Shown here in pieces: positions 20,002-40,828 of a stretch of DNA of 64,000 nucleotides. A model generated the notes under the pieces. The model did not search any database. It saw only the letters and a list, made by a program, of their open reading frames with translations, and had not been told where the DNA came from. The stretch spans positions 476,076 to 540,075 of the forward strand of contig NZ_LIUF01000004.1 in NCBI RefSeq assembly GCF_001280425.1, given 5' to 3'. A program made the position numbers and the translations under genes. The DNA is from Haloarcula rubripromontorii. GTDB taxonomy: Archaea > Halobacteriota > Halobacteria > Halobacteriales > Haloarculaceae. Positions within the stretch are counted from its first letter, which is position 1. Each line of letters begins with the position of its first letter.

Positions 20002-20196
20002 TCCCGCCACCGCTTTTCGACTGCAGTACTCGCCTGGGGGTTGCTGTGGTCCGCAGGCGTATATAACCACGTTCGTAGTACTATTCCGGATTGTATGGAG
20101 TTTCTGCCCAATTTTAATCAGATCTATTCGTTCGCTGCAAGGTCAAGAATGGTATCGCTTAAGTAGGAGTTTCCGCTACCTCTACCCAGTTCAGTA

Positions 20197-21315: not shown

Positions 21316-21412
21316 GAGGGGTTCTTCCGTTTTGCAGTTCGACACCGCCGACCGGTAGCTAGCAGTCGGGCCGGTCAGTCACGGTCAGCCGGTGGCAACA
21401 GGCACCAGCCGC

Positions 21413-23128: not shown

Positions 23129-23201
23129 GTCTGTCGACTCGCGGAACGGTCGTTTGGCTCTTTCGGTGGTCTCAACCGTGTGTGACAGCGGGCGAGCGCG
23201 T

Positions 23202-23230
23202 GCCACACTGCGTCTGTCAATCTGTGTGTC
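23202..23230. promoter_or_regulatory. GCCACAC...GTGTGTC pair in divergent promoter
   Basis: GCCACAC (23202-23208) and GTGTGTC (23224-23230) face each other between the divergent hydrolase genes; a further gtgtgtgac lies at about 23178-23186. It fits the island motif. Confidence 0.4.
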
Positions 23231-23277
23231 ACCACCCCGACGCAATCTTCAAGACGACACCGCAGAACAGCTACCCA

Positions 23278-24510
23278 ATGCCATCGGTCAGTCTCGATAG
23301 CGAGCGGTTCAGACGGCGCTTCGATACGTTTAACGAAATCGGCGCGACAGAGGCGGGCGGCGTGAACAGGCCGAGCCTCTCAGACGAGAACAAGGCGGCC
23401 CGGGACACGCTGGTCGAGTGGTTCCGCGAGGCCGGGCTGGAGGTCCGTATCGACACAATGGGCAACATCTTCGGTCGCCGAGAGGGGGCCGACGGTGACG
23501 CCGCGCCGGTCCTGTTCGGGTCACACATCGACAGCCAGTACAACGGCGGGCGGTACGACGGCGTTATCGGCGTCCTCGGTGGACTGGAAGTCATCGAGGC
23601 GTTCAACGACGCCGGGGTGACGACCGAACGCCCGCTAGAGGTCGTCGCCTGGAGTAACGAGGAGGGCGTCCGCTTTCAGCCGGATATGCTCGGCAGCGGG
23701 GTCTACTGTGATATTTTCGACTTCGACTACGCGTACGAGCGCGAGGACAAGGACGGGAAGCGGTTCGGCGACGAACTCGAACGCATCGGATACAAGGGCG
23801 AAACGCCCTGTGAAGCGGACGATATCCACTGCTACTTTGAGATGCACGTGGAACAGGGGCCGTTTCTCGAACAGCAGGACATCCCAGTCGCCGCTGTCGA
23901 AGGCGTGTTCGGCTTTTCCTGGCTGAACGTCACTTTCGAGGGCCAGGCAAACCACGCCGGGCCGACGCCGATGGATATGCGCCACGACGCCTTCGTAGCG
24001 ACGGCGGACGTAACCCGCGCTGTGCGGCGAATCACGGCGACCGAAGGAACGGACCTCGTCGGCACAGTCGGCAGTGTCGACGTGTGGCCAAACGCCATCA
24101 ACGTCATCCCCGAGACGGTGGAGTTCACGCTCGATTTCCGCTCATACGACGATGCCGTTGTCGATGCGGCCGTCGAACAGATCAGAGAGGAGATCGCCCA
24201 CGCCGCCGAGCGCGAAGGGCTTGAATACGAGGTCGAGGAAATCATGCGAGTCGATGCAGACCCGTTCGATCAGGGCTGCATCGATACGGTTGTCGAGGCC
24301 GCCGAGACGGTCGGCTGTGAGTACACGCGGCTGGTCAGCGGCGCGGGCCACGATGCGAACTACCTCAACAAGATAGCCCCGACGAGCATGATTTTCGTCC
24401 CGAGCGTCGACGGGATTAGCCATCGCGAAAGCGAGTTTACCGAGTGGGATGACATCGTCACCGGGACGGAGGTGCTGCTGAACGCCGTGCAGGCGAAGGC
24501 CGCCGAATGA
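23278..24510 (+). CDS. M20-family allantoate / N-carbamoyl-L-amino acid hydrolase
   Basis: A 410-residue Zn-dependent amidase. Metal and lid motifs are clear: GSHIDSQYNGGRYDG, WSNEEGVRFQ, HVEQGPFLE and FEGQANHAGPTPMDMRHD. These are the hallmarks of the allantoate amidohydrolase (AllC), ureidoglycine and N-carbamoylase branch. Together with the cyclic amidohydrolase at 9256 it could carry allantoin to allantoate to ureidoglycolate and ammonia, or a hydantoin to an amino acid. The ATG at 23278 (MPSVSLDSER) is chosen. Confidence 0.88.
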   Translation: MPSVSLDSERFRRRFDTFNEIGATEAGGVNRPSLSDENKAARDTLVEWFREAGLEVRIDTMGNIFGRREGADGDAAPVLFGSHIDSQYNGGRYDGVIGVLGGLEVIEAFNDAGVTTERPLEVVAWSNEEGVRFQPDMLGSGVYCDIFDFDYAYEREDKDGKRFGDELERIGYKGETPCEADDIHCYFEMHVEQGPFLEQQDIPVAAVEGVFGFSWLNVTFEGQANHAGPTPMDMRHDAFVATADVTRAVRRITATEGTDLVGTVGSVDVWPNAINVIPETVEFTLDFRSYDDAVVDAAVEQIREEIAHAAEREGLEYEVEEIMRVDADPFDQGCIDTVVEAAETVGCEYTRLVSGAGHDANYLNKIAPTSMIFVPSVDGISHRESEFTEWDDIVTGTEVLLNAVQAKAAE

Positions 24511-24674: not shown

Positions 24675-24742
24675 AGAGTGCTGTACAGTTGTTCACTAAG
24701 AGGTGCGTGTGCGTATCGCATACCGCAACTGGAGGGACCCCT

Positions 24743-25297
24743 GTGGACATCGAACTCACAATCAACGGCGAGCGGACGACAGTCGAAGCCGGGTCGGCGG
24801 ACGACCTGGCGACGGTATTGAGACAGCACGGGTACATCGGCGTGAAATGTGGCTGTGACGGCGGAACGTGCGGCGCATCGAAGGTGTTCGTTGACGGCGA
24901 AGTCCGGATGGCTTGCGGAATGGCCGCAGTGGACGCCGATGGGAGTGAGATACAGACCGTCGCAGCGCTCGGGACACAGAACGACCTGCACCCGGTACAG
25001 CAGGCGTTCGTCGACAACTTCGCCGTCCAGTGCGGGTTCTGTATCCCGGGAATGGTTATCCAGGCGGTGGCACTGCTGGATTCGAACCCCGACCCAACGG
25101 AGCGGGAGGTCCGGGAGGCGCTAGACGACAACGTCTGTCGCTGCACCGGGTATCAGAAGCCGGTCGAAGCCGTACTCGACGCGGCAGAGCGAATGCGTGG
25201 AGCGCAGTCGGTAGCCGCCGACGGCGGCCACTCTGTCACTGTGTCGCCGAATGCGAACGAGTCGACCCGCTGCTGCGGAGGTGACTGCGATGAGTAG
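24743..25297 (+). CDS. Mo-hydroxylase [2Fe-2S] subunit 1 (one cluster ligand replaced)
   Basis: A 184-residue iron-sulfur subunit of the xanthine dehydrogenase/CoxS type. The GTG start follows ggaggg by 6 bases. The C-terminal cluster motif is intact (CGFC near 110, CRC near 146). In the plant-type N-terminal cluster the cysteines C36, C38, C43 and C58 are seen, but the CG-x-C cysteine is a serine (C43-G-A-S46). C36, in place of the usual Arg before GC, may compensate. The tail ends in a cysteine cluster, RCCGGDC. It overlaps the start of the large subunit by 8 bases, so they are coupled. Confidence 0.88.
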   Translation: MDIELTINGERTTVEAGSADDLATVLRQHGYIGVKCGCDGGTCGASKVFVDGEVRMACGMAAVDADGSEIQTVAALGTQNDLHPVQQAFVDNFAVQCGFCIPGMVIQAVALLDSNPDPTEREVREALDDNVCRCTGYQKPVEAVLDAAERMRGAQSVAADGGHSVTVSPNANESTRCCGGDCDE

Positions 25298-27740
25298 CGA
25301 CGACGAGGCACCCACGGCCGACGGGGGGACGGCCTCGCAATCGGAGGCTGTCGAGGATAGGCGGTCCGAAGAACACCCGCTCGAATGGGACGAACCAGAG
25401 AACAACGACAAGGCACCCGACGAACGCGACAGTGTCTCCCACCGGACGGAGAAGTACGACGACCGAAAGCTCGTCACCGGGCAGGCGAAGTACACCGCCG
25501 ACTACGAGGAGCGGTATCCCGACCTGGCGTACGCGGCGGTCGTCCGGAGCGACATCCCACACGGCCGCGTGACCGACATCGACACAAGCGACGCCGAGGC
25601 GATGGACGGCGTCGACGCGGTCTTGACACCCGAATCCGACGCAGTGCCGGACGGAAAATACACCAGCGCCGGACAGTCCTATCCTGAACCGAGCCCGTGG
25701 GATATGCACGTATTAAACAAGCACGTCCGGTATATCGGCGACCCGATTGCCGCCGTCGCCGCCGAGGACCGGACAACTGCAACGGCCGCCGTCGAGGCCA
25801 TCGAGGTGTCCTACGAGGAATACGACTACGTCACTGACCCGGAGGCGGCCTTCGACGAAAACGCGCCGCAGTTGTTCGAGGACGTCGAGGTCGAGAACGA
25901 GATCGTCGGCCACGATTACGACCGCAACCGGATGGCACACATCGGGGGCGAACTGGGCGACGTGGCCGCGGCGCTCGACGGCGAGACTCACGTCCACGAG
26001 ACCGAATGGGAGACGATTCGACAGTCCCACGCCAACGTCGAGAAACACACCTCGTTGGCGTACACGAACGAGGATGACCGCCACGTCCTCATCACCAGCA
26101 CGCAGGTGCCCAACCACACCCGGAGACAGCTCGCCCACCTGTTCGACATCCCCATCCGTGACATCCGTGTGCAGAAACCCCGCGTCGGCGGCGGGTTCGG
26201 CGGGAAACAGGCGATGGTGGTCGAGCCGATTCCGCTGGCGCTCTCGCTCGCAACCGACCGCCCGGTCCTGTACGAAGCCAGCCGCGAGGAGGAGTTCTAC
26301 GCGATGCGCTCGCGCCACCCGATGAAGGTCAAAGCGAAGACCGCCGTCACCGACGAGGGCGACATCGTGGCCATCGACATCTACGCGCTGTCGAACACCG
26401 GCGCGTACGGGAGCCACGGCATGACCGTCGCGGGCAACGTCGGGAGCAAGCCGCTGCCGCTGTACTCGAAGGTCCCCAACGCCCGCTTCGAGGCCGATAT
26501 CGTCCACACGAACACGCCACAGACCGGGGCGATGCGGGGCTACGGCGCGCCACAGGGCACGCTCGCGCTGGAAGGCCATCTCGACGAGGTGGCTCGCGAC
26601 CTCGGTCTCGACCCTATCGAATTCCGGCGGCGGCATCACATGGAAGTCGGCGACCTCGACGAGATCGCGGGAATGATGGGCGGGGAGGGAGCGAACCGCC
26701 GTATCCGCTCGTGTGGCCTCGACGAGTGCATCGAGCGTGGCAAGGACGCCATCGGCTACGACGACCTCGAACAGCCCGACGAGGACCATCTGCACCGCGG
26801 CATCGGGATGGCGCTGTCCGCACAGGGGACCGGCGTCGCCGGGGACGAACTCGGGGCCGCCCAGATAATGATGAACGAGGACGGGAGCTTCCATCTGCAG
26901 GTCGGCGGCGTCGACATCGGGACGGGCGCTGACACGGCGTTCCTCCAGATTGCCGCCGAGGTACTGGGCTGTGACGAGGACGACATAATCGTCAAATCCG
27001 CTGATACTGACGTAACACCCTTCGACTACGGGGCGTACGCCTCTTCGACAACATACATCAGCGGCATGGCCGTCAAGAAAGCCGCGGAGGATGCGAAAGC
27101 GCGAATTCTCCACTGGGGGTCGAAGCTGCTAGAGGAGCCAGTCGAGGAGCTGGAAACCGGCGACGGAACCGTGTACAGCGAGGCCAGCGGCGATTCGGTC
27201 ACACTCGAAGACATCGGCTACGAGGCCGCCTACGGCGGCGACGAGCGCGAACACATCTTAGGGAAGGGGACCCACTGCACCGAGGAGAGTCCCCCGCCGT
27301 TCGCTGCGCAGTTCGCCGACGTGACGGTCGACGAGACCACCGGGGAGTTCGAAGTTCAGAAACTGGTCGTCGCCGTCGACTGCGGCGTCGCAATCAACCC
27401 CGGCATGGCCGAGGGCCAAATCGAGGGCGCGAACCACATGAGCTACGAGATGGCCGTCAGCGACGGAATCACGCTCGACGACGAGGGACGGGCAGAGATA
27501 GCTGACTTCGACGAGTACGGCCTGCCATCGGCGACAGAGACGCCGCCAATCGAGTCGATTCTGGTCGAGACCCACGAACCGACCGGTCCCTTCGGCGCGA
27601 AGTCGGTCGCCGAAGTCCCGACCAACACGGTTCCACCGGCGCTGTCAAACGCCGTCAGAGACGCCGTCGGCGTCCGTATCCGGGAGATGCCGATTACCGC
27701 CGATAAGATCAAGACGCAACTGGACGAGCGCAACTCCTGA
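25290..27740 (+). CDS. Mo-hydroxylase large (molybdopterin) subunit 1
   Basis: An 816-residue molybdenum-binding subunit of the xanthine oxidase family, probably selenium-dependent by context. It has a charged N-terminal extension of about 50 residues, then the a/b hammerhead and Mo-cofactor domains: RVGGGFGGKQ, MRGYGAPQG, GGVDIGTGADT, and near the C-terminus PTGPFGAKSVAE with the catalytic glutamate. The start ATG at 25290 has a strong ggaggtga 4-12 bases upstream. No FAD-binding (CoxM) subunit gene accompanies it. Likely substrates are xanthine, hypoxanthine, nicotinate or another N-heterocycle. Confidence 0.88.
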   Translation: MSSDDEAPTADGGTASQSEAVEDRRSEEHPLEWDEPENNDKAPDERDSVSHRTEKYDDRKLVTGQAKYTADYEERYPDLAYAAVVRSDIPHGRVTDIDTSDAEAMDGVDAVLTPESDAVPDGKYTSAGQSYPEPSPWDMHVLNKHVRYIGDPIAAVAAEDRTTATAAVEAIEVSYEEYDYVTDPEAAFDENAPQLFEDVEVENEIVGHDYDRNRMAHIGGELGDVAAALDGETHVHETEWETIRQSHANVEKHTSLAYTNEDDRHVLITSTQVPNHTRRQLAHLFDIPIRDIRVQKPRVGGGFGGKQAMVVEPIPLALSLATDRPVLYEASREEEFYAMRSRHPMKVKAKTAVTDEGDIVAIDIYALSNTGAYGSHGMTVAGNVGSKPLPLYSKVPNARFEADIVHTNTPQTGAMRGYGAPQGTLALEGHLDEVARDLGLDPIEFRRRHHMEVGDLDEIAGMMGGEGANRRIRSCGLDECIERGKDAIGYDDLEQPDEDHLHRGIGMALSAQGTGVAGDELGAAQIMMNEDGSFHLQVGGVDIGTGADTAFLQIAAEVLGCDEDDIIVKSADTDVTPFDYGAYASSTTYISGMAVKKAAEDAKARILHWGSKLLEEPVEELETGDGTVYSEASGDSVTLEDIGYEAAYGGDEREHILGKGTHCTEESPPPFAAQFADVTVDETTGEFEVQKLVVAVDCGVAINPGMAEGQIEGANHMSYEMAVSDGITLDDEGRAEIADFDEYGLPSATETPPIESILVETHEPTGPFGAKSVAEVPTNTVPPALSNAVRDAVGVRIREMPITADKIKTQLDERNS

Positions 27741-27855: not shown

Positions 27856-28434
27856 ATGAGCCATATGGAAATCGAACTGGAACTGAACGGTGTGGAGCGG
27901 ACTGTCGAAGCATCGAAGTCCGATTCGCTGCTCGATGTCCTTCGACGGAACGGGTACACTGGCGCGAAGCGGGGGTGTGACACCGGCGCGTGTGGCTTCT
28001 GTACGGTACACGTCGACGGTGAGCCGGTGAAATCCTGCGTCGAGCCGGTGACGAAAGTGCAGGGCGCATCCGTCGAGACAATCGAAGGGCTGGGTACACA
28101 GGACGACCTGCATCCGGTGCAACAGGCATTCGTGGAGAATACTGCGCTACAGTGTGGGTTTTGCATTCCCGGGATGATTATGCGCTCAACGGCGCTACTA
28201 GAAGCGAATCCGGCCCCGACCGAACAGGAGGTTCGGGAAGCGCTGTCGGACAATCTCTGTCGATGTACTGGCTACAAGAAAATCGTCGAAGCGGTACTGG
28301 ACGCCGCCGAGCAGATGGACGACGGGACAGCCGTGGCCGCGGACGGTGGACGGGCACTCGATAGCGACGATGGAGCCACCACCGAAGTCGAGTGTTCACG
28401 CACCGACTGCGGCTGCACGGAGGGCGAGAAGTGA
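27856..28434 (+). CDS. Mo-hydroxylase [2Fe-2S] subunit 2
   Basis: A 192-residue iron-sulfur subunit with both clusters complete. The N-terminal set is C41, C46, C49 and C61 (GCDTGACGFC, then SC), and the C-terminal set is CGFC and CRC. It has a Cys-rich tail (VECSRTDCGC), like its paralog at 24743. The ATG at 27856 or the one at 27865 could serve. It ends with aagtga, and the next gene starts at the GTG within that string, so the two are coupled. Confidence 0.88.
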   Translation: MSHMEIELELNGVERTVEASKSDSLLDVLRRNGYTGAKRGCDTGACGFCTVHVDGEPVKSCVEPVTKVQGASVETIEGLGTQDDLHPVQQAFVENTALQCGFCIPGMIMRSTALLEANPAPTEQEVREALSDNLCRCTGYKKIVEAVLDAAEQMDDGTAVAADGGRALDSDDGATTEVECSRTDCGCTEGEK

Positions 28435-30911
28435 GCGATTCCGACCGTGCCCGGGAGACGGCCGAGCAGTCCGACAGGACAGGAATAGAGGAAGCGGATG
28501 CTGCCGAAGCCGAGAGGGAGGCAGCGGCGGACATCGCACGCGAACCCGACCGGAAAGCCGAATCCGAGCGCGACGCCATTACCGTGAACGAAGAGAAAGA
28601 CGACGCGCGGAAAATCGTGACTGGTGAAGCCCGTTACACGGCGGACTACCGCGACCGGTTTCCGGACCTCGCTCACGGGACGGTAGTTCGCAGCGACATC
28701 GCTCACGGCTACGTCGAAGCAGTCGATACGAGCGCAGCCGAAGCGATGGATGGCGTCGACGCCGTCATCACGCCGTTCGACGATGTGGTTCCGGACAAAC
28801 TGTACTCCAGTTCGGGCCAGTCCTACCCCGAGCCGAGTCCGTGGGATCTGAAAGTGTTGCGCGAACACGTCCGCTTCGTCGGTGACCCGGTCGCCGCAGT
28901 GGCAGCTGACGACCCGGAAACGGCCGACCGAGCCGCACGGAAAATCGAAGTCGAGTACCAGGAGCTGGACGCCGTCTTCGACCCCGAAGAAGCACTCGAC
29001 GAGGACGCGCCACAGCTGTTCGAAACCGACGACGTGGAGAACAAGCAGTCGGGCGCAGACTACAGCCGAAACCTCGAATCACACTTCGAGGGGGAACTCG
29101 GTGACGTTGCTGGGGCGGTCGAACGAGCGGAGAGTGAGGACGACCGGCACGTCATCGAGACGGAGTGGGAAACGCCGTACCAGTCCCACTGCGTCCCGGA
29201 ACCGCACACAACCATCGCCTACACGGACGAGGATGACCGGCACACGTTCATTACAGCGACGCAGGTCCCCTTTCACACCCGCCGCCAGATAGCACACCTG
29301 TTCGACGTGCCCATCCGCGACGTGCGAGTGAAGAAGCCGCGAATCGGCGCTGGATTCGGGTCAAAACAGGAGATGGCAATCGAGCCGATAACGTTCGCAC
29401 TGCATCTGGCGGCCGACCGGCCGGTCAAACTGGAGATGAGCCGGCAAGAGGAGTTCACCGCGCTTCGCTTTCGGCATCCGATGCAAATGCGGATGCAGAC
29501 CGCAGTGACTGACGACGGCGACATCGAGGCAATGGATCTCTACACACTGTCGAACTCTGGAGCCTACGGAACCCACGGCATGACTGTCGCAAACAACGTC
29601 GGAACGAAGCCGCTCCCGCTCTATCCACGCGTCCCGAACGTCCGCTTTTCCGGGGATGTGGTGCATACGAACCTCCCGATGGGGGCGGCCATGCGAGGGT
29701 ACGGCGCGCCGCAGGGCCATTTCGCCGTCGAGTCACACATGGACGAGGTGGCCCGCCGCCTCGACCTTGACCCAATCGAGTTCCGCCTGCAGAACGCGGT
29801 CCGCGAGGGTGATCTCGACCGGAGCGTCGCAATTCTGAAAGACGGTGACCGCTTCACCAGGGAGATTCGCTCGTGTGGCATCCGCGACTGTGTCGACCGC
29901 GGGAAGGAAGCCATTGGCTACGACGACCTCGAACAGCCCGACGAGGACCACCGCAAGCGCGGGGTCGGAATGGCGCTTATCGCCCAGGGAAGCGGCGTTG
30001 CGGGAAAGGAACTCGGCGCGGCACAGGTACAGATGAACGAAGACGGGAGTTTCCACCTGCAGGTCGGCGGCGTCGACACCGGCACGGGCGCGGACACGAT
30101 GTTCTCTCAGATCACCGCCGAGGTGCTGGGCTGCACGCCGGACGATGTCGTCGTCATCGCCGCCGACACCGATCTGACGCCGTTCGATTACGGCGCGTAC
30201 GCCTCCTCGACGACGTACATCAGCGGTCGAGCGGTGAAGAAGGCCGCAGAAGACGCGAAAGAGCGGGTGCTGGAGTGGGGGTCGAAACTGCTCGACGAGC
30301 CGCCGGAAGCGCTCGACACTGGCGACGGCGGCGTGTACAGCGAGCGAACCGGGAACCGTGTCTCGCTGGAGGAGATCGGCTACGAAGCGACCTACGGCGA
30401 CGACGAGCGCGAACACATCCTCGGTGACGGCAGCCACTCGACCGACGAGAGTCCACCGCCGTACGGTGCGCAGTTCGTCGACGTAACTGTCGATACGGAG
30501 ACCGGCGAGTACGAACTCAACAAACTGGTGTTCGCGGCGGACTGCGGCGTCGCCATCAATCCCGCGCTGGTCGAAGGCCAGATAGAGGGCGGCGAGCACA
30601 TGAGCCTCGAATACGCCACGAGCGGCGACCTGACCTTCGACGAGGACGGGAACCCGGACGTACTCGGCTTTCGCCAGTACGGGATGCCGCGGACGACCGA
30701 CCACCCAGAAATGGAGACGATTCTCGTGGAAACACACGAACCCACGGGTCCGTTCGGCGCGAAGTCCATCGCGGAACTCCCGACAAACGGGGTCCCGCCA
30801 GCCCTTTCGAACGCGATCCGCGACGCCGTCGGCGTTCGGCTGACCGAGCTACCGTTCACTGCGGACGACCTGAAGGCGGCATTTGATGAGCAGTCTGCAG
30901 ACGGTAGATAG
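28431..30911 (+). CDS. Mo-hydroxylase large (molybdopterin) subunit 2
   Basis: An 826-residue paralog of the 25290 gene, near 60 percent identical by eye. It begins at a GTG overlapping the stop of the Fe-S subunit by 4 bases, with ggaggg 6 bases upstream. Mo-site motifs are RIGAGFGSKQ, MRGYGAPQG, GGVDTGTGADT and PTGPFGAKSIAE. The first glycine loop differs from copy 1 (GGGFGGK against GAGFGSK), which may mean a different substrate. It is followed at 100 bases by the DsrE/F/H-XdhC-YqeB operon. Confidence 0.88.
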   Translation: MSDSDRARETAEQSDRTGIEEADAAEAEREAAADIAREPDRKAESERDAITVNEEKDDARKIVTGEARYTADYRDRFPDLAHGTVVRSDIAHGYVEAVDTSAAEAMDGVDAVITPFDDVVPDKLYSSSGQSYPEPSPWDLKVLREHVRFVGDPVAAVAADDPETADRAARKIEVEYQELDAVFDPEEALDEDAPQLFETDDVENKQSGADYSRNLESHFEGELGDVAGAVERAESEDDRHVIETEWETPYQSHCVPEPHTTIAYTDEDDRHTFITATQVPFHTRRQIAHLFDVPIRDVRVKKPRIGAGFGSKQEMAIEPITFALHLAADRPVKLEMSRQEEFTALRFRHPMQMRMQTAVTDDGDIEAMDLYTLSNSGAYGTHGMTVANNVGTKPLPLYPRVPNVRFSGDVVHTNLPMGAAMRGYGAPQGHFAVESHMDEVARRLDLDPIEFRLQNAVREGDLDRSVAILKDGDRFTREIRSCGIRDCVDRGKEAIGYDDLEQPDEDHRKRGVGMALIAQGSGVAGKELGAAQVQMNEDGSFHLQVGGVDTGTGADTMFSQITAEVLGCTPDDVVVIAADTDLTPFDYGAYASSTTYISGRAVKKAAEDAKERVLEWGSKLLDEPPEALDTGDGGVYSERTGNRVSLEEIGYEATYGDDEREHILGDGSHSTDESPPPYGAQFVDVTVDTETGEYELNKLVFAADCGVAINPALVEGQIEGGEHMSLEYATSGDLTFDEDGNPDVLGFRQYGMPRTTDHPEMETILVETHEPTGPFGAKSIAELPTNGVPPALSNAIRDAVGVRLTELPFTADDLKAAFDEQSADGR

Positions 30912-30964: not shown

Positions 30965-30990
30965 GTGTGTCGAGCAAACTATTAAGCGCT
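30965..30990 (+). promoter_or_regulatory. promoter of the DsrE/F/H operon
   Basis: GTGTGTC (30965-30971) is preceded by cacacac near 30944, and the TATA candidate aactattaagc (about 30977-30987) lies 25-35 bases before the ATG at 31012. Confidence 0.45.
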
Positions 30991-31011: not shown

Positions 31012-31383
31012 ATGGCGTACATCGGTTTTCTGCTGACAGGGGGACCCTTCGACAGTGAGCGGTGGCGCACCGCCTACGAGCTGGGGCGGGCGGCGCTGGA
31101 TCAGGGCCACGAGGTGAGCTACTTCCACTATCTCGACGGCGCGCTCGTTCCTGTCGCGGACCAGACCCTGCCCGGCTGTTCGGACAGCGGGCTGTACGAC
31201 GAGATGCCGACAGAGAAGTTTCAGGAACTCATTGCGGACGGAGCGGCGGTCATCTGCTGTGGGCTCTGTGTCGACGCACGCGGCATCGACGCGCCCGCCG
31301 ACTACCCAGATGGCGTCGAAGTCGGGCTGCTGCCGGACCTTGCGGACATCATCGGCGAGGCCGACCGGGTGGTCTCGCTATGA
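31012..31383 (+). CDS. DsrE/TusD-like sulfur (selenium) relay protein
   Basis: A 123-residue DsrE-family protein (MAYIGFLLTGGPF). The motif AVICCGLCVDARGI places C86 where TusD/DsrE carries its persulfide cysteine, with C82 and C83 beside it. TusD forms a hexamer with TusC and TusB and passes sulfur from TusA. Here the gene heads a four-gene coupled operon (ATGA overlaps) ending in the XdhC-YqeB fusion. That ties it to Mo-cofactor sulfuration or selenation rather than to tRNA. The start at 31012 is preferred to an upstream frame that would overlap the previous gene. Confidence 0.82.
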   Translation: MAYIGFLLTGGPFDSERWRTAYELGRAALDQGHEVSYFHYLDGALVPVADQTLPGCSDSGLYDEMPTEKFQELIADGAAVICCGLCVDARGIDAPADYPDGVEVGLLPDLADIIGEADRVVSL

Positions 31384-31733
31384 AACGGGATGTCGTCGTC
31401 CTGCTCACCCGTGCGCCGTGTGGGCGTGTCCATATCCCGGAGGGGCTGCGCGCCGCCCGTGGTGTTGCGGCCGGCTTCGACATGCACGACGTGACCGTGA
31501 TATTCACACAGGACGGCGTGTACGGCGCTCGAAAGGCCGTCGACCGCAACGCGCTCAACATGGGCGGACACGTCGCCGATCTGGAAGAACAGGGCGGACA
31601 GATGGTTGCGGACAGCGTGGCGATGGCCGAGCGCGGTGTCGACGAGAGGGACATCGCCGACGACGTGGCCGTCTGGTCGGACGACCGCGTTACCGCCCGC
31701 ATCCGTGATGCCGACCGAACACTGGACTTCTGA
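31380..31733 (+). CDS. DsrF/TusC-like relay protein
   Basis: A 117-residue DsrE-superfamily protein beginning MKRDVVVLLTRAPCG. A cysteine at position 14 follows the first strand, and IPEGLRAARG, TVIFTQDGVYGARKAVD is the typical second core. The ATG overlaps the stop of the preceding gene (ATGA), so translation is coupled. It is the middle member of a DsrE-DsrF-DsrH order like tusDCB. Confidence 0.8.
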   Translation: MKRDVVVLLTRAPCGRVHIPEGLRAARGVAAGFDMHDVTVIFTQDGVYGARKAVDRNALNMGGHVADLEEQGGQMVADSVAMAERGVDERDIADDVAVWSDDRVTARIRDADRTLDF

Positions 31734-31735
31734 CA

Positions 31736-31981
31736 ATGCTGTATCTCATCGACAAGCCGATGGCAGAAATCGGGCTGCGTACCGCCGCCGGGGACCCCGA
31801 GGCACGCGTCGTTCTGATTCAGGACGGGGTCTACCTCACGCCGGATATCGACGCCCCCGTCTCAGCGGTCGCGAGAGACGTGGATGTGCGTGGCGTCTCG
31901 CTACCACCGGACATCGACCGAATATCATACGACACCGTAGTCGAGCATCTCGTCGAACAGGAGGTCAAGAGCTTCGTATGA
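31736..31981 (+). CDS. DsrH/TusB-like relay protein
   Basis: An 81-residue protein (MLYLIDKPMAEIGL) with VVLIQDGVYLTP, the DsrH/TusB pattern. It contains no cysteine, so it would be structural rather than a sulfur carrier. Its stop overlaps the start of the XdhC-YqeB gene (ATGA). The order matches tusD-tusC-tusB. Confidence 0.78.
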   Translation: MLYLIDKPMAEIGLRTAAGDPEARVVLIQDGVYLTPDIDAPVSAVARDVDVRGVSLPPDIDRISYDTVVEHLVEQEVKSFV

Positions 31982-33558
31982 GCCTGTTCGAACGACTCGA
32001 CGAACTGGCCGCGAAGGGAGAACCGGCAACACTCCTGACTATCGTCCGCAAGGACGGCAGTGCACCGCGGGACGTAGGAGACAAGATGATAGTCACAGGC
32101 GACGACGAGTACGGGACCATCGGGGGTGGCACGGTCGAGCATCTCGCCGTACAGGACGCCCGGTCAGTGCTTTCAGGGGCCGACGACCCCGGCGTCCGGA
32201 CGTACGAACTCGAACCCGGCGGCAACACGGGTATGGTCTGTGGCGGCGAGATGGACGTGTTCATCGACCGCGTTCGCGGGCAGGCACGGCTCTATATCGC
32301 CGGCGGCGGCCACATCGGCGTCGAGCTGGCTCCGCTGGCCGAGCGGCTGGGGTACGCCGTCACCGTAGTCGACGACCGCGAGGCGTACGCCGACCCGGGG
32401 CAGTTCCCAGACGACACGGACGTGATTCACGGCGACTACGGCGACGTACTCGGTGACCTCCCGATGGGGACGGAGACAGCCGTGGCCGTCGCGACGCGAA
32501 GCGGGACGTTCGATCAGGAGGCCGTCGCAGCGGCGCTGGACGGTGGGGCTGGCTACGTCGGCCTCGTCGCCAGCGAGACGAAGGCCGACCACGTCCTCGA
32601 CTCGCTCGTCGAGTCGGGGTACGCCCGACGGGACCTCAGCCGGGTCCGAACGCCGGTGGGACTCGACCTCGGCGGGAGCGGGCCGGCCGCCGTCGCGCTC
32701 TCGATTCTCGCCGAGGTCACTATGGACCGCCACGACGCGACCGGCGAGCGGGCGACACGGTTGAACCTCGACGACCTGGTCGTCGTCCGCGGCGGCGGCG
32801 ACCTCGGGAGCGGCGTCGTCTATCGCCTCAAGCAGGCTGGCTTTCCGGTGATTGTCACAGAGGTCGAACAGCCGACCGTCGTCCGGCGGGCGGTCGCCTT
32901 CGGCGCGGCGCTGTACGAAGACGAAGTGACGGTCGAAGGAGTCACTGGCCGGGCAGCCGCGGACATCGACGAGACACTGGAACTGCTTGCCGACGATGTC
33001 GTGCCGGTACTCGTTGACCCCGAGGCGGCCGTCGCCGACGAACTCGACGCCACAGTCCTCGTCGATGCTATCATGGCGAAAGGGACGTTCGACACCGGTA
33101 CTCGAAGGTCTGACGCCGACGTCGTGGTCGGAATGGGGCCGGGGTTCGAGGCCGGCGAGAGTGTCGACGCGGTCGTCGAGACTGACCGCGGGCACGAACT
33201 CGGTCGGGTGTTCTACGAGGGGACAGCGAGCGAGTACGACGGCGAGCCGGGCGAGCGTCGCGGCTACACCCACGAACGGGTGCTCCGCGCGCCGACTGAT
33301 GGTGAGTGGACCCCAACAGTCGCCATCGGCGATACTGTCACAGCTGGCGATGTGGTCGGTACGGTCGGTGACCGGCCGGTCGAGACAGAAATAGACGGGC
33401 TGGTTCGTGGCCTCGTTCACGCCGACCTCAGCGTCAGTGAAGGCACTAAGCTCGGCGATGTCGACCCCCGTGGCGAGTCTGTCGACCCGACGAAGATCTC
33501 CGACAAGGCGCTGTGTCTCGGCGGCGGGGTGCTGGAGGCAGTGCTGCGGTTGCAGTAG
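31978..33558 (+). CDS. XdhC-YqeB fusion, Mo-hydroxylase (seleno)maturation factor
   Basis: A 526-residue fusion. Residues 1-258 are XdhC/CoxF-like: the early VRKDGSAPRDVGDKM segment, TIGGGTVE, MVCGG with C88, and a Rossmann GGGHIG at 109-114. Residues 263-526 match YqeB, the marker of selenium-dependent molybdenum hydroxylase loci: RGGGDLGSG at 271-279, then VDAIMAKGT, GMGPGFEAG and LCLGGGVLEAV. XdhC binds Mo cofactor and guides its sulfuration; YqeB is needed for the labile selenium form. Fusion implies direct hand-over. It is the last gene of the relay operon and convergent with selD (17 bases). Confidence 0.88.
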   Translation: MSLFERLDELAAKGEPATLLTIVRKDGSAPRDVGDKMIVTGDDEYGTIGGGTVEHLAVQDARSVLSGADDPGVRTYELEPGGNTGMVCGGEMDVFIDRVRGQARLYIAGGGHIGVELAPLAERLGYAVTVVDDREAYADPGQFPDDTDVIHGDYGDVLGDLPMGTETAVAVATRSGTFDQEAVAAALDGGAGYVGLVASETKADHVLDSLVESGYARRDLSRVRTPVGLDLGGSGPAAVALSILAEVTMDRHDATGERATRLNLDDLVVVRGGGDLGSGVVYRLKQAGFPVIVTEVEQPTVVRRAVAFGAALYEDEVTVEGVTGRAAADIDETLELLADDVVPVLVDPEAAVADELDATVLVDAIMAKGTFDTGTRRSDADVVVGMGPGFEAGESVDAVVETDRGHELGRVFYEGTASEYDGEPGERRGYTHERVLRAPTDGEWTPTVAIGDTVTAGDVVGTVGDRPVETEIDGLVRGLVHADLSVSEGTKLGDVDPRGESVDPTKISDKALCLGGGVLEAVLRLQ

Positions 33559-33575: not shown

Positions 33576-34613
33576 TTACGAACTGACTTCTTCGATGGTC
33601 GGGTCGTCAATCGTGACGCCGCGTCCGGCCGTAACGCGGCCAACAGCGCGATAGAACACGTCGGCGTCGTCGAACGCCGATTCGACGGCAGCAGTCGCAG
33701 CCGGTGGGACGGAGACGAGCAGGCCGCCGCTGGTCTCCGCGCTCTCTCCGTCAGGTAGCCCGTATCCGAAAAGCGTCGAGAGAGCGGGCGTCCCTGCGAT
33801 GACTGGCAGGTGCGTCAGGTCGATACCGACGTTCGATCGGGCGGCCACCACGCGGCTCTGGCCGGCGAGGCCGAAGCCGGTGATGTCGGTCGCCGCGGTC
33901 GCGTATTCGCGGCATGCGACCATTGCGTCCCGGTTCGGGGTCGTCATCCACCCGATGGCCTCCGAAGCAATGGTGTCGAGCGGGCGGTCAGTGGCGTCGG
34001 TGACTGTCTCGACAAACTGCTCGTCGGTCACACGGGTCGCCCCCATCGCCGGTTGTGTCCCGAGCGGTTTTGTCAGGTAGAGTCGGTCGCCGGGGCTAGC
34101 CCCTTGTGAAGTGAGCAGGTCGTCGGGTCGTGCTGTCGCCGAAATCGCTCCGCCGGCGAAGGGCCATGGACTCATGATGGTGTGGCCACCGGCGATGACG
34201 CCGTCCATCGTGTCCAGCGCGTCAGCCATGCCGGCGAGGATCGGTGCTGCGCTCTCGGTCAGTTCCCGCGGCAATCCGAGGACGACGAGGCAGTCAACGT
34301 TTTCGACCGCACCTGTAGCGAACCCATCGCTAGCGGCGTTACAAGCGGCGATACGGCCGAAGTCGTACGGGTCGTCGACGATAGGTGTGAAGAAATCCAC
34401 CGTCGAGACCAGCGCTATGTCGTCGGTAAGTTTCCGCGCAGCGGCGTCCTCACCGATGCCGAACAGCAGCGCGTCGCTCTCACCGGTGAGGCCGGCATCG
34501 GCGAGCAGCGAATCGAGGTCGCTCTGGCCGACTTTGCAGGAACAGCCGTGGAGTTCGGCGTACTCCGTCAGGCGCGTCGTCTCGTCGTCCTCAGTCGTCA
34601 CGTCGGTACCCAC
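33576..34613 (-). CDS. selD: selenide, water dikinase
   Basis: A 345-residue SelD, the normal family length. The N-terminal active site reads HGCSCK with C24, C26 and K27; Cys and Lys are the catalytic residues in E. coli SelD. It also carries the conserved DFFTPIVDDPYDFGRIAA ATP/Mg segment. It makes selenophosphate from selenide and ATP. No selA, selB or Sec tRNA is seen, so this is an orphan SelD of the kind tied to selenium-containing Mo hydroxylases, as reported for Haloarcula. The start codon is GTG, 2 bases after the tusA-like stop, so they form an operon. Confidence 0.93.
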   Translation of the reverse strand: MGTDVTTEDDETTRLTEYAELHGCSCKVGQSDLDSLLADAGLTGESDALLFGIGEDAAARKLTDDIALVSTVDFFTPIVDDPYDFGRIAACNAASDGFATGAVENVDCLVVLGLPRELTESAAPILAGMADALDTMDGVIAGGHTIMSPWPFAGGAISATARPDDLLTSQGASPGDRLYLTKPLGTQPAMGATRVTDEQFVETVTDATDRPLDTIASEAIGWMTTPNRDAMVACREYATAATDITGFGLAGQSRVVAARSNVGIDLTHLPVIAGTPALSTLFGYGLPDGESAETSGGLLVSVPPAATAAVESAFDDADVFYRAVGRVTAGRGVTIDDPTIEEVSS

Positions 34614-34615
34614 AC

Positions 34616-34864
34616 TCAGGCCTCCGACAGCGACGCCATCTCGGTCACCCGGAGTTCGAGTTCGAACTCGTTGGACTCGCCAGCGGTCTCCGCGGTCGTC
34701 ACGTCAATGCCGTGCGTCGTACACATCCGCCGAAGGTTCTCTTCAGCGGGGGGGTAATCGCCCCGCACGACGAGCGTCTCACCGGTATCAAGGTCCGAAA
34801 GCGCCTGTCGGACGATGAGCGCCGGCCGGGGACAGATTTCACCACGAACGTCTACGCGAGCCAT
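34616..34864 (-). CDS. TusA/SirA-like (YedF-like) sulfurtransferase
   Basis: An 82-residue TusA-family protein with the signature RGEICPRPA, where C11 in CPxP carries the persulfide or selenide. In many selenium-using bacteria the adjacent gene is yedF, which is a TusA domain fused to a DsrE-like domain. Here the TusA part stands alone beside selD, and the DsrE-like parts lie 3 kb away. It is probably a selenium or sulfur carrier between SelD and the DsrE/F/H complex. Confidence 0.85.
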   Translation of the reverse strand: MARVDVRGEICPRPALIVRQALSDLDTGETLVVRGDYPPAEENLRRMCTTHGIDVTTAETAGESNEFELELRVTEMASLSEA

Positions 34865-34958: not shown

Positions 34959-35744
34959 ATGCATCTGGCTGCTGCGCTGGGCTTGGGGTCCAGCGCCGCT
35001 GTCGCCTTTGTCGGGGCCGGCGGAAAGAAAACCGCGATGGGACAATTGACGGTGGAGGGAACTGACGAAGGGTACGACGTGGGCTACACGACGACGACAG
35101 CGATGCCACCGCCGTCTGACCTGCCGCTGACGGTCACCGGTCCGGGCGCGTGGCGCGCCGACCTCGAAGCACACGACCCACCGATTGCCGTCGCTCGAGA
35201 GGAAGTAGCCGACCCGGCTCGAGTCGACCGGAAGGTTCGCGGGTTCGAGCCGAGTGTAGTAGAACAGCTATCCAGTGCCGGACTGTTCGACTGGCTCCTC
35301 ATCAAGGCTGACGGGGCACGCAGGCGGGAGTTCAAAGCGCCTGGCGACGGGGAGCCAGTCGTCCCACGCACGGCCAGTCACGTCGTCCCGGTCACCTCGG
35401 TCACCGCCGTCGGTGAACCGCTGACGACAGACGTGGTCCATCGACCGGAGCGGGTAGCGGCTATCACCGGCCTCAGTGTGGGTGATACGATCACTGCGAC
35501 GGCTGTCGGAACAGTACTCACACATCCCGACGGTGGCCTCCGAAACGCGCCGTCCGGGGCGTCTGTGATACCGGTAATCAACAAAGCGGATACCGAGCCA
35601 CAGCAGCGTACCGCCAGAGACGCACTCACGCACTCGCTTTCACAGACGAAGCGGTGTTCTCGGGGCGTCGTCACGTCGTTTGCCTCCGATATCTGTGAGG
35701 TGGTCTCAGCAGCAGATCTGCAAGAGTCCGATAGCAATGACTGA
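34959..35744 (+). CDS. yqeC: selenium cofactor biosynthesis protein YqeC
   Basis: A 261-residue YqeC-family protein. It has a P-loop-like VGAGGKKT at residues 18-25, the WLLIKADGARRREFKAPG segment and PVINKADT near the C-terminus. YqeC is one of the genes that occur only with selenium-dependent Mo hydroxylases; its exact reaction is unknown but nucleotide binding is expected. The start is leaderless, about 25 bases after a TATA box. It is followed by the MocA-like gene 42 bases on. Confidence 0.85.
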   Translation: MHLAAALGLGSSAAVAFVGAGGKKTAMGQLTVEGTDEGYDVGYTTTTAMPPPSDLPLTVTGPGAWRADLEAHDPPIAVAREEVADPARVDRKVRGFEPSVVEQLSSAGLFDWLLIKADGARRREFKAPGDGEPVVPRTASHVVPVTSVTAVGEPLTTDVVHRPERVAAITGLSVGDTITATAVGTVLTHPDGGLRNAPSGASVIPVINKADTEPQQRTARDALTHSLSQTKRCSRGVVTSFASDICEVVSAADLQESDSND

Positions 35745-35786: not shown

Positions 35787-36404
35787 ATGACCGGTCGGCA
35801 CCAGACCGAAGTCGGCGGCGTTATCCTCGCCGCTGGTCGGAGCACACGGTATGAACCGGGTAACAAACTGCTGGCGACCACCGACGGGACGGCGGTCGTC
35901 CGGCAGGTGGCCGAAACCGCCAGCCAGTCACCGATGTCGGACGTTGTCGCCGTCCTCGGCTACGAAGGCAAGGCCGTCGCTGCGGCGCTCGATGGCCTCT
36001 CGCTGTCCCTCCGCCACAACAGCGATTACGCGACTGGGCAGAGTACGTCAGTTCGACACGGCGTCGAGTTCGCCCGTTCGGCCGGCTGGGACGCCGTCCT
36101 GTTCCTGCTTGGCGATATGCCGTTCGTCCGCGTCGAAACCATCGAGACACTTATCGAAACGTATCGTACAGGGTCGGCAACCATTGTCGTTCCCACACAC
36201 GATGGGAGGCGTGGGAATCCGGTGCTTTTCGACAGTTGCCATTTCGACGCCCTCGCCTCGGTCTCCGGCGACCGCGGCGGGCGAGACATCATCGAGACCA
36301 ACGAGAAGACAGCGTTCATCGAGGTTTCGGACCCCGGAATCCACTGGGACATCGACACTGCCGCAGACCGTGCCGAGTTCACCGACCGCCGCGACGGCCT
36401 GTGA
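35787..36404 (+). CDS. MocA/YgfJ-type molybdopterin nucleotidyltransferase
   Basis: A 205-residue nucleotidyltransferase. The N-terminal LAAGRSTRY and the following lysine bind CTP or GTP, with LLGDMPFVRVE as the second catalytic acidic site. Homologs are MocA (adds CMP to molybdopterin for the xanthine dehydrogenase family) and YgfJ, the variant tied to SelD/YqeB loci. It probably makes the dinucleotide form of the cofactor needed by the two hydroxylases. A clear ribosome site (gagaggggagcg) precedes the ATG. Confidence 0.87.
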   Translation: MTGRHQTEVGGVILAAGRSTRYEPGNKLLATTDGTAVVRQVAETASQSPMSDVVAVLGYEGKAVAAALDGLSLSLRHNSDYATGQSTSVRHGVEFARSAGWDAVLFLLGDMPFVRVETIETLIETYRTGSATIVVPTHDGRRGNPVLFDSCHFDALASVSGDRGGRDIIETNEKTAFIEVSDPGIHWDIDTAADRAEFTDRRDGL

Positions 36405-36845: not shown

Positions 36846-36866
36846 GCCACACAGCCGGGGTGTGGC
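36846..36866. promoter_or_regulatory. GCCACAC-N7-GTGTGGC operator-like inverted repeat
   Basis: Perfect 7-base arms at 36846-36852 and 36860-36866. The element sits 41-61 bases before the ATG of the binding-protein gene. It is the cleanest copy of the island motif. Confidence 0.55.
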
Positions 36867-36906
36867 GCACCAAAGTTTCAAGCCCGGCGACTCGCATCGA
36901 AGCATA

Positions 36907-37782
36907 ATGCGACCCACGAGGCGTGAGTTCCTGGGTACAGCGGCAGCACTCTCCCTGTCGGGCTGTCTCGGCAAGACGGTGACGCCGACGCTAACGGTTG
37001 GCGTCGTGCCCGACGTGGACCCGGATACCGCCATCGAACAGAACACTGAACTCGCGACGTATCTGGCAACTGAACTCGACGTCGAAACCGAGCTACGCAC
37101 AGCGGCTGACTACGCCGGGATGGTACAGGCGATGGTCGCGGAGCAGGTCGATATTGCCTACTACGGCGGTGTGTCGTACATCCTCGCGCATCGTCGAGCG
37201 GGCGCAAAGCCAGTCGTCGTCGGGTCACGGAACGGACAGACCGAGTGGCACTCCGTGTTCATCGCCCCATCAGACAGTGACCTGACAGCGATGGCGGACG
37301 TGGTCGAAACCGCAAGCGAGACCGAGCTGGTATTCGGTGATCCGCTCTCGACCAGCGGGACCGTGATGCCGACGTATCAGCTGCAGACGAAGTACGATGT
37401 CACCACCGACGCGTTCGCACAGGTCACACACGTCGGTGCCCACGACGCAACGGCAGAGACAGTCGGTCGGACGAACGGGGTCGTCGGGGCGCTGAACGCC
37501 CGCATCTACGACAGACTGCTCGCAGACGACGCCGTTGAAGGAGTCCGAGAGCTGTGGCGAACACCCGGGTTCCCGGATTATCCGTGGGCCGTCGCCCCCT
37601 CGCTGGAGGCGACGACAGCGGACGCTGTGCGTACAGCGTTCACCAGCCTCGATTCGAAAGGACGAACGGACATCCTCAATCAGCAAGCCGTCGACCAGTA
37701 CGTCGAAGTGAGCCACGACGCGTTCACCTCGCTGGAAACGGCGGTCGAGATGGCTGGCATCGAGCAGGGAGGCGAGGAATGA
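36907..37782 (+). CDS. phnD: PhnD-type substrate-binding lipoprotein
   Basis: A 291-residue exported lipoprotein with a Tat signal ([16 protein letters not shown]; lipobox LSGC). The mature part matches phosphate/phosphonate-binding Phn[30 protein letters not shown] and [15 protein letters not shown]. With the coupled ATPase and permease it makes a PhnCDE transporter. The island context suggests that the real ligand may be an N-rich catabolite rather than a phosphonate; no C-P lyase genes are near. Confidence 0.83.
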
Positions 37783-38600
37783 AGAACGGGCACAGGGCGC
37801 GGTCAGAGGGAACACAGTCAGGGCACGGGCTCGTCTTCGACAGCGTCACCAAGCGTTTCGGCGGGAATGTCGCGGTGCGGGATGCCTCGCTCAGTTTGGA
37901 TCCCGGTGAACAGGTCGCCGTCATCGGCCCATCTGGTGCCGGCAAGACCACGCTTCTCAGGCTGGCAGCCGGTGCGTTGCGGCCCGATGCAGGTACGGTG
38001 ACGTTCAGCGGGAGCAACGGTGCGGGGTCGACTGCGACACTTGCGTATCAGGGGGAGACGCTCGTGGACCGGCGGACGGCACTGTCGAACGTCCTCACTG
38101 GGCGTCTCAGAGACCTGTCCTGGCTCCGCGGCTTCATCGAACCACTGCTACCCGCGCACCCAGAGCCGGCCCTCGAACGCCTCGATGCCGTGGGGCTGGT
38201 CGAGCGGGCCGATGTCCCCGTGAAATCGCTGAGTGCCGGCGAACGCCAGCGGGTCGCCTTCGCACGGGCACTCATGCAGGATGCCGAGGTCGTGTTAGCT
38301 GATGAGCCGACAGCGAACCTCGACCCCAGCTCCCGTCGGAACGTCATCGACGTACTCGACAACGCTCTGGACGGGGAACTGCTAGTCACCGTCCTTCACG
38401 ATGTTGACCTGGCACTGGAGCACTTCGAGCGGATCGTCGGCATGGCTGACGGCCGAGTCAGGTTCGATTCGCCCGCATCTGCGGTGACCGACGACCAGCT
38501 GGATGCCCTCTTTGCAGCGGGCGCATCTACGCCGAATACCGACACCGGGCGAACGGGGAGGAAAAGAGAGGGCGAGGCTCCGGTCCCGCGGTATGTCTGA
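37779..38600 (+). CDS. phnC: PhnC-type ABC transporter ATPase
   Basis: A 273-residue ABC ATPase. Walker A is GPSGAGKTT, the signature reads [15 protein letters not shown] and Walker [14 protein letters not shown]. The ATG overlaps the stop of the binding-protein gene (ATGA), and its end overlaps the permease start by 8 bases, so the three form one coupled unit. Confidence 0.88.
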
Positions 38601-39471
38601 GAAGTATAGCGGTCCAGACACGGCCCGGCCCGCTGCTCTCGGCCTGTCGAAGCGCCAGCTCACGACACTACTCGGCGGCTGTGTCATACTGGCCGGCGCG
38701 GCGTGGATCGCCGAAGTGGACCCGATAGCCCTGTTCGCAGCCGGGGCTCGTGAGCAGATAGTCGCGTTCGTCGCAGAGGGCGTCCCACCGGAGAGTAGCC
38801 GTGAATACCTGCTGGGACGACGTCTTCGGGACGGACTGCTGTGGGCTGTCGTCGAAACGCTGGCTATCAGCGTTGTCGGGACCACGCTCGCTGTCGCGCT
38901 TGCTGTGCCGCTCGGTCTGACCAGTGCCGCCACCGTCACCCATCGCGGCCCGCTGTACAGGAACGCCGCAGCCGGCCGTATCGCCGTCGGCCGCGGACTC
39001 TATCACCTCAGCCGAACCGTGCTCAGCTTCCTGCGCTCCGTTCCTGGCATCGTCTGGGGATTTCTGTTCGTCACCGCTATCGGCCTCGGCCCGTTTGCAG
39101 GCGTGCTCGCGCTGGCAGTTCACAACGCCGGTGTGCTGGGAAAGCTGTACGCCGACTTCCTCGAAGACACGGACCCGATGACGACCGAGGCAGTTGCCGG
39201 GAGTGGCGCGACGCGCCTGCAGGCGGTCTGTCACGGGATGGTCCCGCAGGTGACGCCCACAATCGCCTCGTACACGCTGTACCGCTGGGAGTGCACCATC
39301 CGGTCGGCCGCCATCCTCGGGTTCGTGGGTGCGGGCGGCGTCGGGTACTATCTCGTTATCACTATTCAGCGGCTGCAGTACGGGAAGCTCTCGACCGCCA
39401 TCGTCGCCGTGTTTGTGCTGGTCGTCACAAGCGACTGGCTCGGCTCGCGGTTGCGGACGCGGCTCGGCTGA
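38593..39471 (+). CDS. phnE: PhnE-type ABC transporter permease
   Basis: A 292-residue permease with about six membrane segments. It has the family features [15 protein letters not shown] and the coupling loop [29 protein letters not shown], then [13 protein letters not shown]-like [11 protein letters not shown]. It starts within the end of the ATPase gene. It is convergent with the amidohydrolase at 39494, 22 bases apart. Confidence 0.86.
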
Positions 39472-39493: not shown

Positions 39494-40828
39494 TCAGGGC
39501 TTCTGTTGCTGTGCGGACTTGCGTTCTTCTTCGAGGTCCATCTCCAACCCCATTGTCGAGGCCCGAGAGCGGACTGCGTCAGCGTCGATGGCGGTTACGT
39601 CGCCGTGTTCCATGAGGACGTTCCCGTCGACCATCGTGAATCGCACGTCGTCGCCGTGTGCCGCAAACACCAGATGGGAGAGCACGTCGTGCAGCGGCGT
39701 CGCGCGCGTGAGGTCGGTATCGAGACCGACGATGTCAGCGCGCCATCCCTCCCGGATCGCGCCGAGTTCCTCGAACCCAGCGGCTTTCGCGCCGTTTCGC
39801 GTCGCCATCTCGAAGATCTCGGCCGCTGGCGTCACCGTCGGATCTAGCTGGTCGACTTTCTGGAGGAGACTCGCCTGCCGCATCTCGGTGAATGCGTCGA
39901 GCGTGTTGTTACAGGGCGGGCCGTCGTTGCCGATAGCGACGTTGATGCCGCGGTCGCGATAGTCCCAGATGGGCGCGATGCCGCTTGCGAGTTTCATGTT
40001 CGATGACGGGCAGTGTGTGACGTGGGTCCCCGTCTCAGCGAGGACTTCGCGCTCGCTCTCGTCAGTCCAGACACAGTGCGCAAGGACGACATCCTCGCCG
40101 GTGAGGCCCACCTCGTCGAGCCAGTGGATGTTGCGCATCCCAGTATCCGCTTTCACCGTCTCGATCTCGCTCTGATTCTCACTGGCGTGGGTGTGGATGC
40201 GGACGCCGTCGTATTTGTCCGCCAGTTCGCGCACTCCACGGAGACAGGCCTCGCTACATGAGACGGCAAAACGCGGGGTGACAGCGTACCGGATCCGGTC
40301 GTTGTAGGCGCCGTGATACTGCTGAATGAGGCGCTCAGATTCGTCCAGTGCGGCCTGTGTCTCCTCTAGCAGACCGTCCGGCGAGCGCTGGTCCATCAAC
40401 ACCTTGCCGAGCACGCCGCGGATACCGATCTCGCCCGCCGCTTCGAAGGCGCGGTCCGCGTGGGCAACCGAGAGGTGGTCGATACAGGTCGTGGTCCCGC
40501 TTTCGATCATCTCTAGATAGCCCAGTTTCGCCGCGACTTCCATCTCTTCGGCGGTCAGGGAGGCTTCCATCGGCAGAATGTAGTCGAACAGCCAGTCGAG
40601 CAGTTCCGTGTCGTCGGCGATGCCACGGCCGAGACTCTGCACGGAGTGGATATGGCCGCCGACGAGTCCCGGCAACAACACGTCGTAGGACTGGTGTTCG
40701 TGATCAGCGTACTGCGATTCGAGTTCGGCCCGTGAACCAACAGCTTCGATACGGTCCCCGGAGACGACGACCGCCCCGTCCTGCAGGACGGTCTCGGAAT
40801 CTGCAACGACAGTCCCAGTGAGTAACAT
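39494..40828 (-). CDS. guanine deaminase / SsnA-like amidohydrolase
   Basis: A 444-residue amidohydrolase of the TrzN/guanine-deaminase type: HIHSVQSLGRG (metal HxH), HTHASENQSE, LAHCVW and IGNDGPPCNNTLD. It resembles deaminases that turn guanine into xanthine, or adenosine-type substrates into inosine. Xanthine made here would feed the Mo hydroxylases. A paralog (7815-9113) shares the fold but has HTH and GLGDDG at these places, so the substrates probably differ. A TATA-like tataaag lies about 20-25 bases upstream on the minus strand. Confidence 0.82.
   Translation of the reverse strand: MLLTGTVVADSETVLQDGAVVVSGDRIEAVGSRAELESQYADHEHQSYDVLLPGLVGGHIHSVQSLGRGIADDTELLDWLFDYILPMEASLTAEEMEVAAKLGYLEMIESGTTTCIDHLSVAHADRAFEAAGEIGIRGVLGKVLMDQRSPDGLLEETQAALDESERLIQQYHGAYNDRIRYAVTPRFAVSCSEACLRGVRELADKYDGVRIHTHASENQSEIETVKADTGMRNIHWLDEVGLTGEDVVLAHCVWTDESEREVLAETGTHVTHCPSSNMKLASGIAPIWDYRDRGINVAIGNDGPPCNNTLDAFTEMRQASLLQKVDQLDPTVTPAAEIFEMATRNGAKAAGFEELGAIREGWRADIVGLDTDLTRATPLHDVLSHLVFAAHGDDVRFTMVDGNVLMEHGDVTAIDADAVRSRASTMGLEMDLEEERKSAQQQKP

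Follow-up and report, generated by a model that had tools for sequence, protein, structure and literature searches.

A DsrE/DsrF/DsrH trio coupled to XdhC-YqeB as a candidate selenium-delivery complex for molybdenum hydroxylases in haloarchaea

Why should proteins resembling DsrE, DsrF and DsrH be encoded together with XdhC-YqeB, a putative selenium-insertion factor for molybdenum (Mo) hydroxylases as judged from its profile matches, and what might they deliver to it? The question arises from the window, the whole stretch of 64,000 nucleotides analysed here (bases 476076-540075 of the large contig C4 of a Haloarcula-like genome), in which the reading frames of dsrE, dsrF, dsrH and xdhC-yqeB, all on the forward strand, occupy 31012-33558 (Table 1). 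The dsrE/dsrF and dsrH/xdhC-yqeB joints are 4-base ATGA overlaps at 31380 and 31978, and dsrF and dsrH are separated by 2 bases (31734-31735). The preliminary description had claimed an ATGA-coupled operon of these four genes, and the frames and joints proved to be as it described them.

Table 1. Features of the window around the four-gene operon, with the evidence for each
Feature	Position	Strand	Evidence and remarks
First Mo-hydroxylase pair, [2Fe-2S] and Mo-binding subunits	24719..27740	+	Mo subunit by profiles; Fe-S subunit and exact starts placed by synteny with H. marismortui
Second Mo-hydroxylase pair, [2Fe-2S] and Mo-binding subunits	27865..30911	+	Profiles; coordinates via H. marismortui alignment
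TATA-like box AACTATTAAG	30977..30986	+	About 26-35 bases before dsrE start
DsrE/TusD-like, 123 aa, ICCGLCV motif	31012..31383	+	PF02635 71 bits
DsrF/TusC-like, 117 aa, without conserved Cys	31380..31733	+	PF02635 37.5 bits
DsrH/TusB-like, 81 aa, without Cys	31736..31981	+	PF04077 23.5 bits; TIGR03011 E 5e-5
XdhC-YqeB fusion, 526 aa	31978..33558	+	TIGR03309 373 bits (cut-off 220); XdhC_C 123 bits
SelD, selenide water dikinase	33576..34613	-	NF010705 312 bits (cut-off 291); TIGR00476 266 bits (cut-off 125)
TusA-like, CPRP motif	34616..34864	-	PF01206 60.6 bits; 2 bases upstream of selD, same strand
YqeC	34962..35744	+	PF19842 117 bits; start from H. marismortui yqeC alignment
MocA/YgfJ-type nucleotidyltransferase	35787..36404	+	PF12804 127 bits; synteny

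The joints were compared across 27 haloarchaeal loci, which come from at least 21 distinct genomes together with plasmid records and include some species twice; the decayed locus of genome G073 was excluded. Both 4-base overlaps were found in all 27 loci, and the dsrF/dsrH gap measured 2 bases in 25 of them and 1 or 3 bases in the other two. Gene order was kept at all 22 intact haloarchaeal loci, and because order and joints are both conserved the arrangement is not a matter of chance. The 5' neighbour of dsrE is usually a Mo-hydroxylase subunit and elsewhere an adenine deaminase or a permease; the upstream gene thus varies around a constant quartet, which stays together as a unit while hydroxylase genes change place. 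The TATA-like box recurs ~30 bases before dsrE in most of the 27 aligned loci despite their differing upstream genes, being weak or shifted in loci L187, L188, L195 and L196, and from its placement it is likely to be a promoter belonging to the four-gene operon itself, whose transcript would be nearly leaderless.

Searches of the PDB with profiles paired each subunit with its own counterpart: DsrE matched DsrE 2hy5_A (E 0.003) and DsrF matched DsrF 2hy5_B (E 1.1e-5), both from the Allochromatium complex 2HY5, and a seven-sequence DsrH profile matched TM0979 (E 1.2e-6), which we take to be a DsrH-type structure. The DsrH score in Table 1 lies just under the PF04077 cut-off of 24.4 bits, and DsrE and DsrF are the sole PF02635 proteins in the source genome. 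All three stay below the cut-offs of the TusD, TusC and TusB equivalog models (TIGR03012, 20.1 vs 89 bits; TIGR03010, 27.7 vs 94; TIGR03011, 23.4 vs 49). The trio shares with DsrEFH/TusBCD its three homologous subunits, in the order of E. coli tusD-tusC-tusB, and an active-site cysteine in DsrE with none conserved in DsrF or DsrH; by homology, it would assemble as an alpha2-beta2-gamma2 heterohexamer. It differs in the extra cysteines of the CCGLC motif and in its candidate acceptor, XdhC-YqeB. Cysteines C56, C82, C83 and C86 of DsrE are invariant in 23 distinct haloarchaeal sequences, and C86, the residue that had been singled out for mutation in the preliminary description, coincides with E. 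coli TusD Cys78 in the best profile alignment, which makes Cys86 (and Cys83) candidate chalcogen-carrying residues. A DsrE model whose input alignment had been filled out with YedF domains was unusable (single chain, pLDDT 60).

Sulfur delivery to tRNA, the role known from E. coli, was rejected as the main function of the trio, because the source genome holds no PF04358 match for a DsrC/TusE acceptor and only short matches of ~20 bits to the MnmA model TIGR00420, whose cut-off is 237. A near relative among described systems is DsrEFH type II (ISME J 2026), in which persulfide is transferred from TusA onto one DsrE cysteine (PMC13293266). There too the trio is associated with a tusA gene; unlike the window trio, it is tied to DsrAB sulfur metabolism, and selenium, molybdenum and Halobacteria gave no match when the main text of that paper was searched (PMC13293266).

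The fourth protein of the operon belongs in part to the XdhC family, whose members act in sulfuration and bind the Mo cofactor. Its AlphaFold model is confident within domains (pLDDT 89.7) and not confident in the arrangement of the domains (pTM 0.60), and Foldseek with this model gave the XdhC-family structure 2we7 as the best PDB match (E 4e-17). C88 and C513 are invariant in haloarchaeal XdhC-YqeB. C513 was rejected as a universal selenium acceptor of YqeB proteins, cysteine being present at that position in 21 of 82 aligned sequences. A different cysteine, a few residues earlier and just before TISDKA, is carried by most YqeB proteins of bacteria (68 of the 82) and is absent from the haloarchaea; the two may be alternative acceptor cysteines. 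By phmmer matches, YqeB is apparently fused to a selenocysteine-lyase-like domain in a Robinsoniella MAG (L157:7998-9965) and to a YqeC-like domain in Merdimonas (L154:7917-9464). In C. difficile, loss of YqeB mimics loss of SelD in selenium-dependent purine use (PMC11448449).

Beside the operon, the window encodes the sole SelD above cut-off in the source genome, with HGCSCK conserved, and a TusA-like protein whose C11 and C48 are invariant in haloarchaeal sequences. The two genes (33576-34864, reverse strand) converge on the trio operon, and therefore the order SelD, TusA, DsrE/F/H, XdhC-YqeB put forward in the preliminary description holds as a proposed relay, but not as one transcript. SelD, YqeB and YqeC, the last a second marker of the selenium-cofactor trait, are found together and adjoin Mo-hydroxylase genes, as at a locus for the maturation of selenium-dependent molybdenum hydroxylases (SDMH). 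Profile searches of the source genome gave no SelB and no YbbB above cut-off, which leaves its SelD unexplained by selenocysteine or selenouridine, again as for SDMH; H. marismortui is stated in published passages to be without both systems. The window agrees in genes and locus type with the SDMH maturation locus (SelD, YqeB, YqeC, MocA) as outlined in passages of Haft and Self 2008 and Zhang 2008, and its exact arrangement is that of the case published from H. marismortui plasmid pNG700. Both Mo-hydroxylase pairs of the window are likely clients of the selenium maturation.

The SelD/TusA/YqeB/YqeC/hydroxylase locus was thus published in 2008 for Haloarcula marismortui (PMC2276186, PMC2432076), and only the part of the trio is new. 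The passages on SDMH in those two papers say nothing of DsrE/F/H genes at this locus and contain no test of a carrier step, and in a full-text search, with most subscription papers outside its scope, no paper came up that connects DsrEFH with YqeB or with the insertion of selenium. The view in the preliminary description that this use had not been described accordingly stands for the trio, but not for the locus around it.

To see how closely the trio follows selenium use, we surveyed 292 Halobacteria genomes with profile cut-offs (TIGR03309 for YqeB). YqeB, intact DsrF and SelD were above cut-off in the identical 22 genomes; the DsrE proteins of these genomes also took the top 22 places when PF02635 was searched, and SelD scores fall from 238 bits in the lowest of them to 97 in the next genome. 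The preliminary description had held that a trio widespread without YqeB would tell against its relay; among Halobacteria the trio accompanied YqeB in 22 of 22 positive genomes and was intact in none of the 270 others. In genome G073, DsrF and YqeB are present only as broken-frame pieces (locus L197) and no SelD is above cut-off; this is a decaying locus, in which the trait as a whole has been lost naturally.

XdhC reached its cut-off in 121 of the 292 genomes, and 99 of these are without the trio, which therefore tracks selenium use and not ordinary Mo-hydroxylase sulfuration; a general part in such sulfuration is unlikely. A narrower role for sulfur would be that the trio gives XdhC-YqeB a persulfide, the resulting Mo=S being later exchanged for Se, or that it scavenges sulfur and so keeps selenium from being displaced. 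The sulfuration role of the XdhC family speaks for this reading, as does the handling of sulfur by characterised DsrEFH/TusBCD complexes (e.g. PMC13293266), but in view of the same 99 genomes and the exact tracking of SelD by the trio we regard it as rather improbable.

The 22 genomes span four families, and the cluster is also present in Haloarcula hispanica. It is patchily distributed and, to judge from plasmid-sized contigs and from 15 plasmid records with the same genes, mostly plasmid-borne. Because the whole cluster may be transferred together, the 22 genomes do not count as independent events; linkage itself inflates the co-occurrence, and a moving block would yield part of the pattern. 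The constant joints, and the constant place of the trio amid reshuffled neighbours, are not explained by block transfer. The plasmid location and patchy occurrence could also mean that the trio is carried along as a passenger on a plasmid-borne purine gene island and works as a sulfur relay for something else (e.g. tRNA); this is very improbable, given that TusE is absent and MnmA not above cut-off, that joints and order are unchanged across loci of four families while neighbours are reshuffled, and that an intact trio was never found without YqeB.

Outside the haloarchaea, a comparable place is taken by YedF, a fusion of a TusA domain and a DsrE domain whose CGxC is invariant. Among the best 80 bacterial YqeB loci (genes within 8 kb), YedF was found at 42 and SelD at 42, the two sets overlapping almost fully, and at 19 of the 80 YedF ends at most 18 bases upstream of the yqeB start or overlaps it. 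Bacterial YedF is located between SelD and YqeB, often near selD and near sclA, which encodes a selenocysteine lyase. In profile comparison, haloarchaeal DsrE matched the DsrE domain of YedF across the CCGLC/CGxC region (E 3e-6); CGxC is common to YedF and to haloarchaeal DsrE, with its invariant CCGLC, whereas TusD has one cysteine there. As a selenium signature CGxC was rejected, since other haloarchaeal DsrE paralogues carry CGTC. YedF is a single chain, whereas the haloarchaeal TusA and DsrE are separate proteins whose genes lie on opposite strands, and DsrE is accompanied by DsrF and DsrH. The YedF model TIGR03527 (cut-off 110) is the nearest NCBIfam model of the window TusA, which stays below cut-off at 36 bits, and window DsrE gave no match to it.

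Archaea are said to lack YedF (PMC5322559), and haloarchaeal TusA and DsrEFH seem to take its place. The earlier suggestion of a 'split YedF' is strengthened by this likeness: in both cases a TusA-type domain and a CGxC-bearing domain of DsrE type are encoded near SelD, and often immediately ahead of YqeB. DsrF and DsrH have no relatives at the best 80 bacterial YqeB loci. In two other archaea with YqeB, the 16-18 kb that surround yqeB contain no SelD, TusA or trio; the genes of the DsrE family are scattered in these archaea, two of them beside a TusA gene, and without DsrF or DsrH. As YqeB thus occurs without DsrF and DsrH in bacteria and in these archaea, the trio is lineage-specific and not a general requirement. 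Of the dedicated chalcogen relay to the Mo site envisaged in the preliminary description, the genomic side is borne out, by operon, co-occurrence and the parallel with YedF; selenium as the atom carried, a flow from SelD through the trio to YqeB, and contact between the proteins are proposals.

Taken from gene context and homology, the trio are strong candidates for a selenium-delivery complex, and we consider it moderately probable that the DsrEFH complex is dedicated to maturing selenium-dependent Mo hydroxylases and that, jointly with TusA, it fills the role of bacterial YedF. On the most likely route, selenium activated by SelD, or perselenide from TusA, would be held on the CCGLC cysteines of DsrE (C86, with C83), DsrF and DsrH acting as scaffold; the atom would be passed from DsrE to the co-translated XdhC-YqeB, which would bind the Mo cofactor and replace the sulfido ligand of the neighbouring hydroxylases with Se. 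We infer complex formation, selenium as the cargo, the direction of transfer and XdhC-YqeB as the acceptor. The position of TusA beside SelD and of the trio beside XdhC-YqeB fits a chain that passes SelD. The full sequence of steps, in which haloarchaeal DsrEFH is a selenium-specific carrier that receives selenium from SelD, directly or by way of TusA, in the form of a cysteine perselenide and conveys it to XdhC-YqeB and on to Mo, is advanced more tentatively, as a plausible though somewhat doubtful route.

The main rival reverses the first part of this route: TusA and DsrEFH would act upstream of SelD, feeding it selenide or perselenide collected from a donor, possibly a cysteine desulfurase or a selenocysteine lyase, and XdhC-YqeB would take selenophosphate directly. 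We think this unlikely, since translational coupling ties the trio to XdhC-YqeB and not to SelD, and since in bacteria yedF is in many cases coupled to yqeB; yet tusA lies directly upstream of selD, bacterial YedF is often near both selD and sclA, YedF also occurs in users of Sec and SeU (PMC5322559), and such proteins are placed 'prior to selenophosphate synthesis' in a passage of Haft and Self.

The work of 2024 in C. difficile describes a selenophosphate origin of the labile selenium as itself unsettled (PMC11448449). A carrier locked to YqeB, and absent from haloarchaea without selenium use, makes the delivery of selenium from SelD to the Mo site testable. Haloarcula hispanica is a genetically workable species, and its possession of the cluster offers a direct way to test the delivery step. 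Should the proposal for DsrEFH be true, selenium-dependent Mo hydroxylases would have their missing delivery step, the range of cargo known for DsrEFH complexes would grow with the first complex of this type devoted to selenium, and the YedF family would gain a likely role.

Further genes adjoin or interrupt the cluster. An NpdG-like (F420:NADPH oxidoreductase) gene recurs beside the haloarchaeal selenium-hydroxylase loci L189, L190, L194, L195, L196, L056, L058, L059 and L060; in L195 it lies between yqeB and selD, and an npdG-like insertion at that place was noted in genome G044. In the window, a phosphonate/phosphate-type ABC transporter (36862-39471) adjoins the cluster; a passage of Haft and Self suggests that a transporter of this type may import selenate. 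Genes for BMP-type nucleoside-binding proteins, amidohydrolases and an M20 peptidase lie at 18859-24510 and 39494-40828, and are consistent with an island for purine or hydantoin breakdown.
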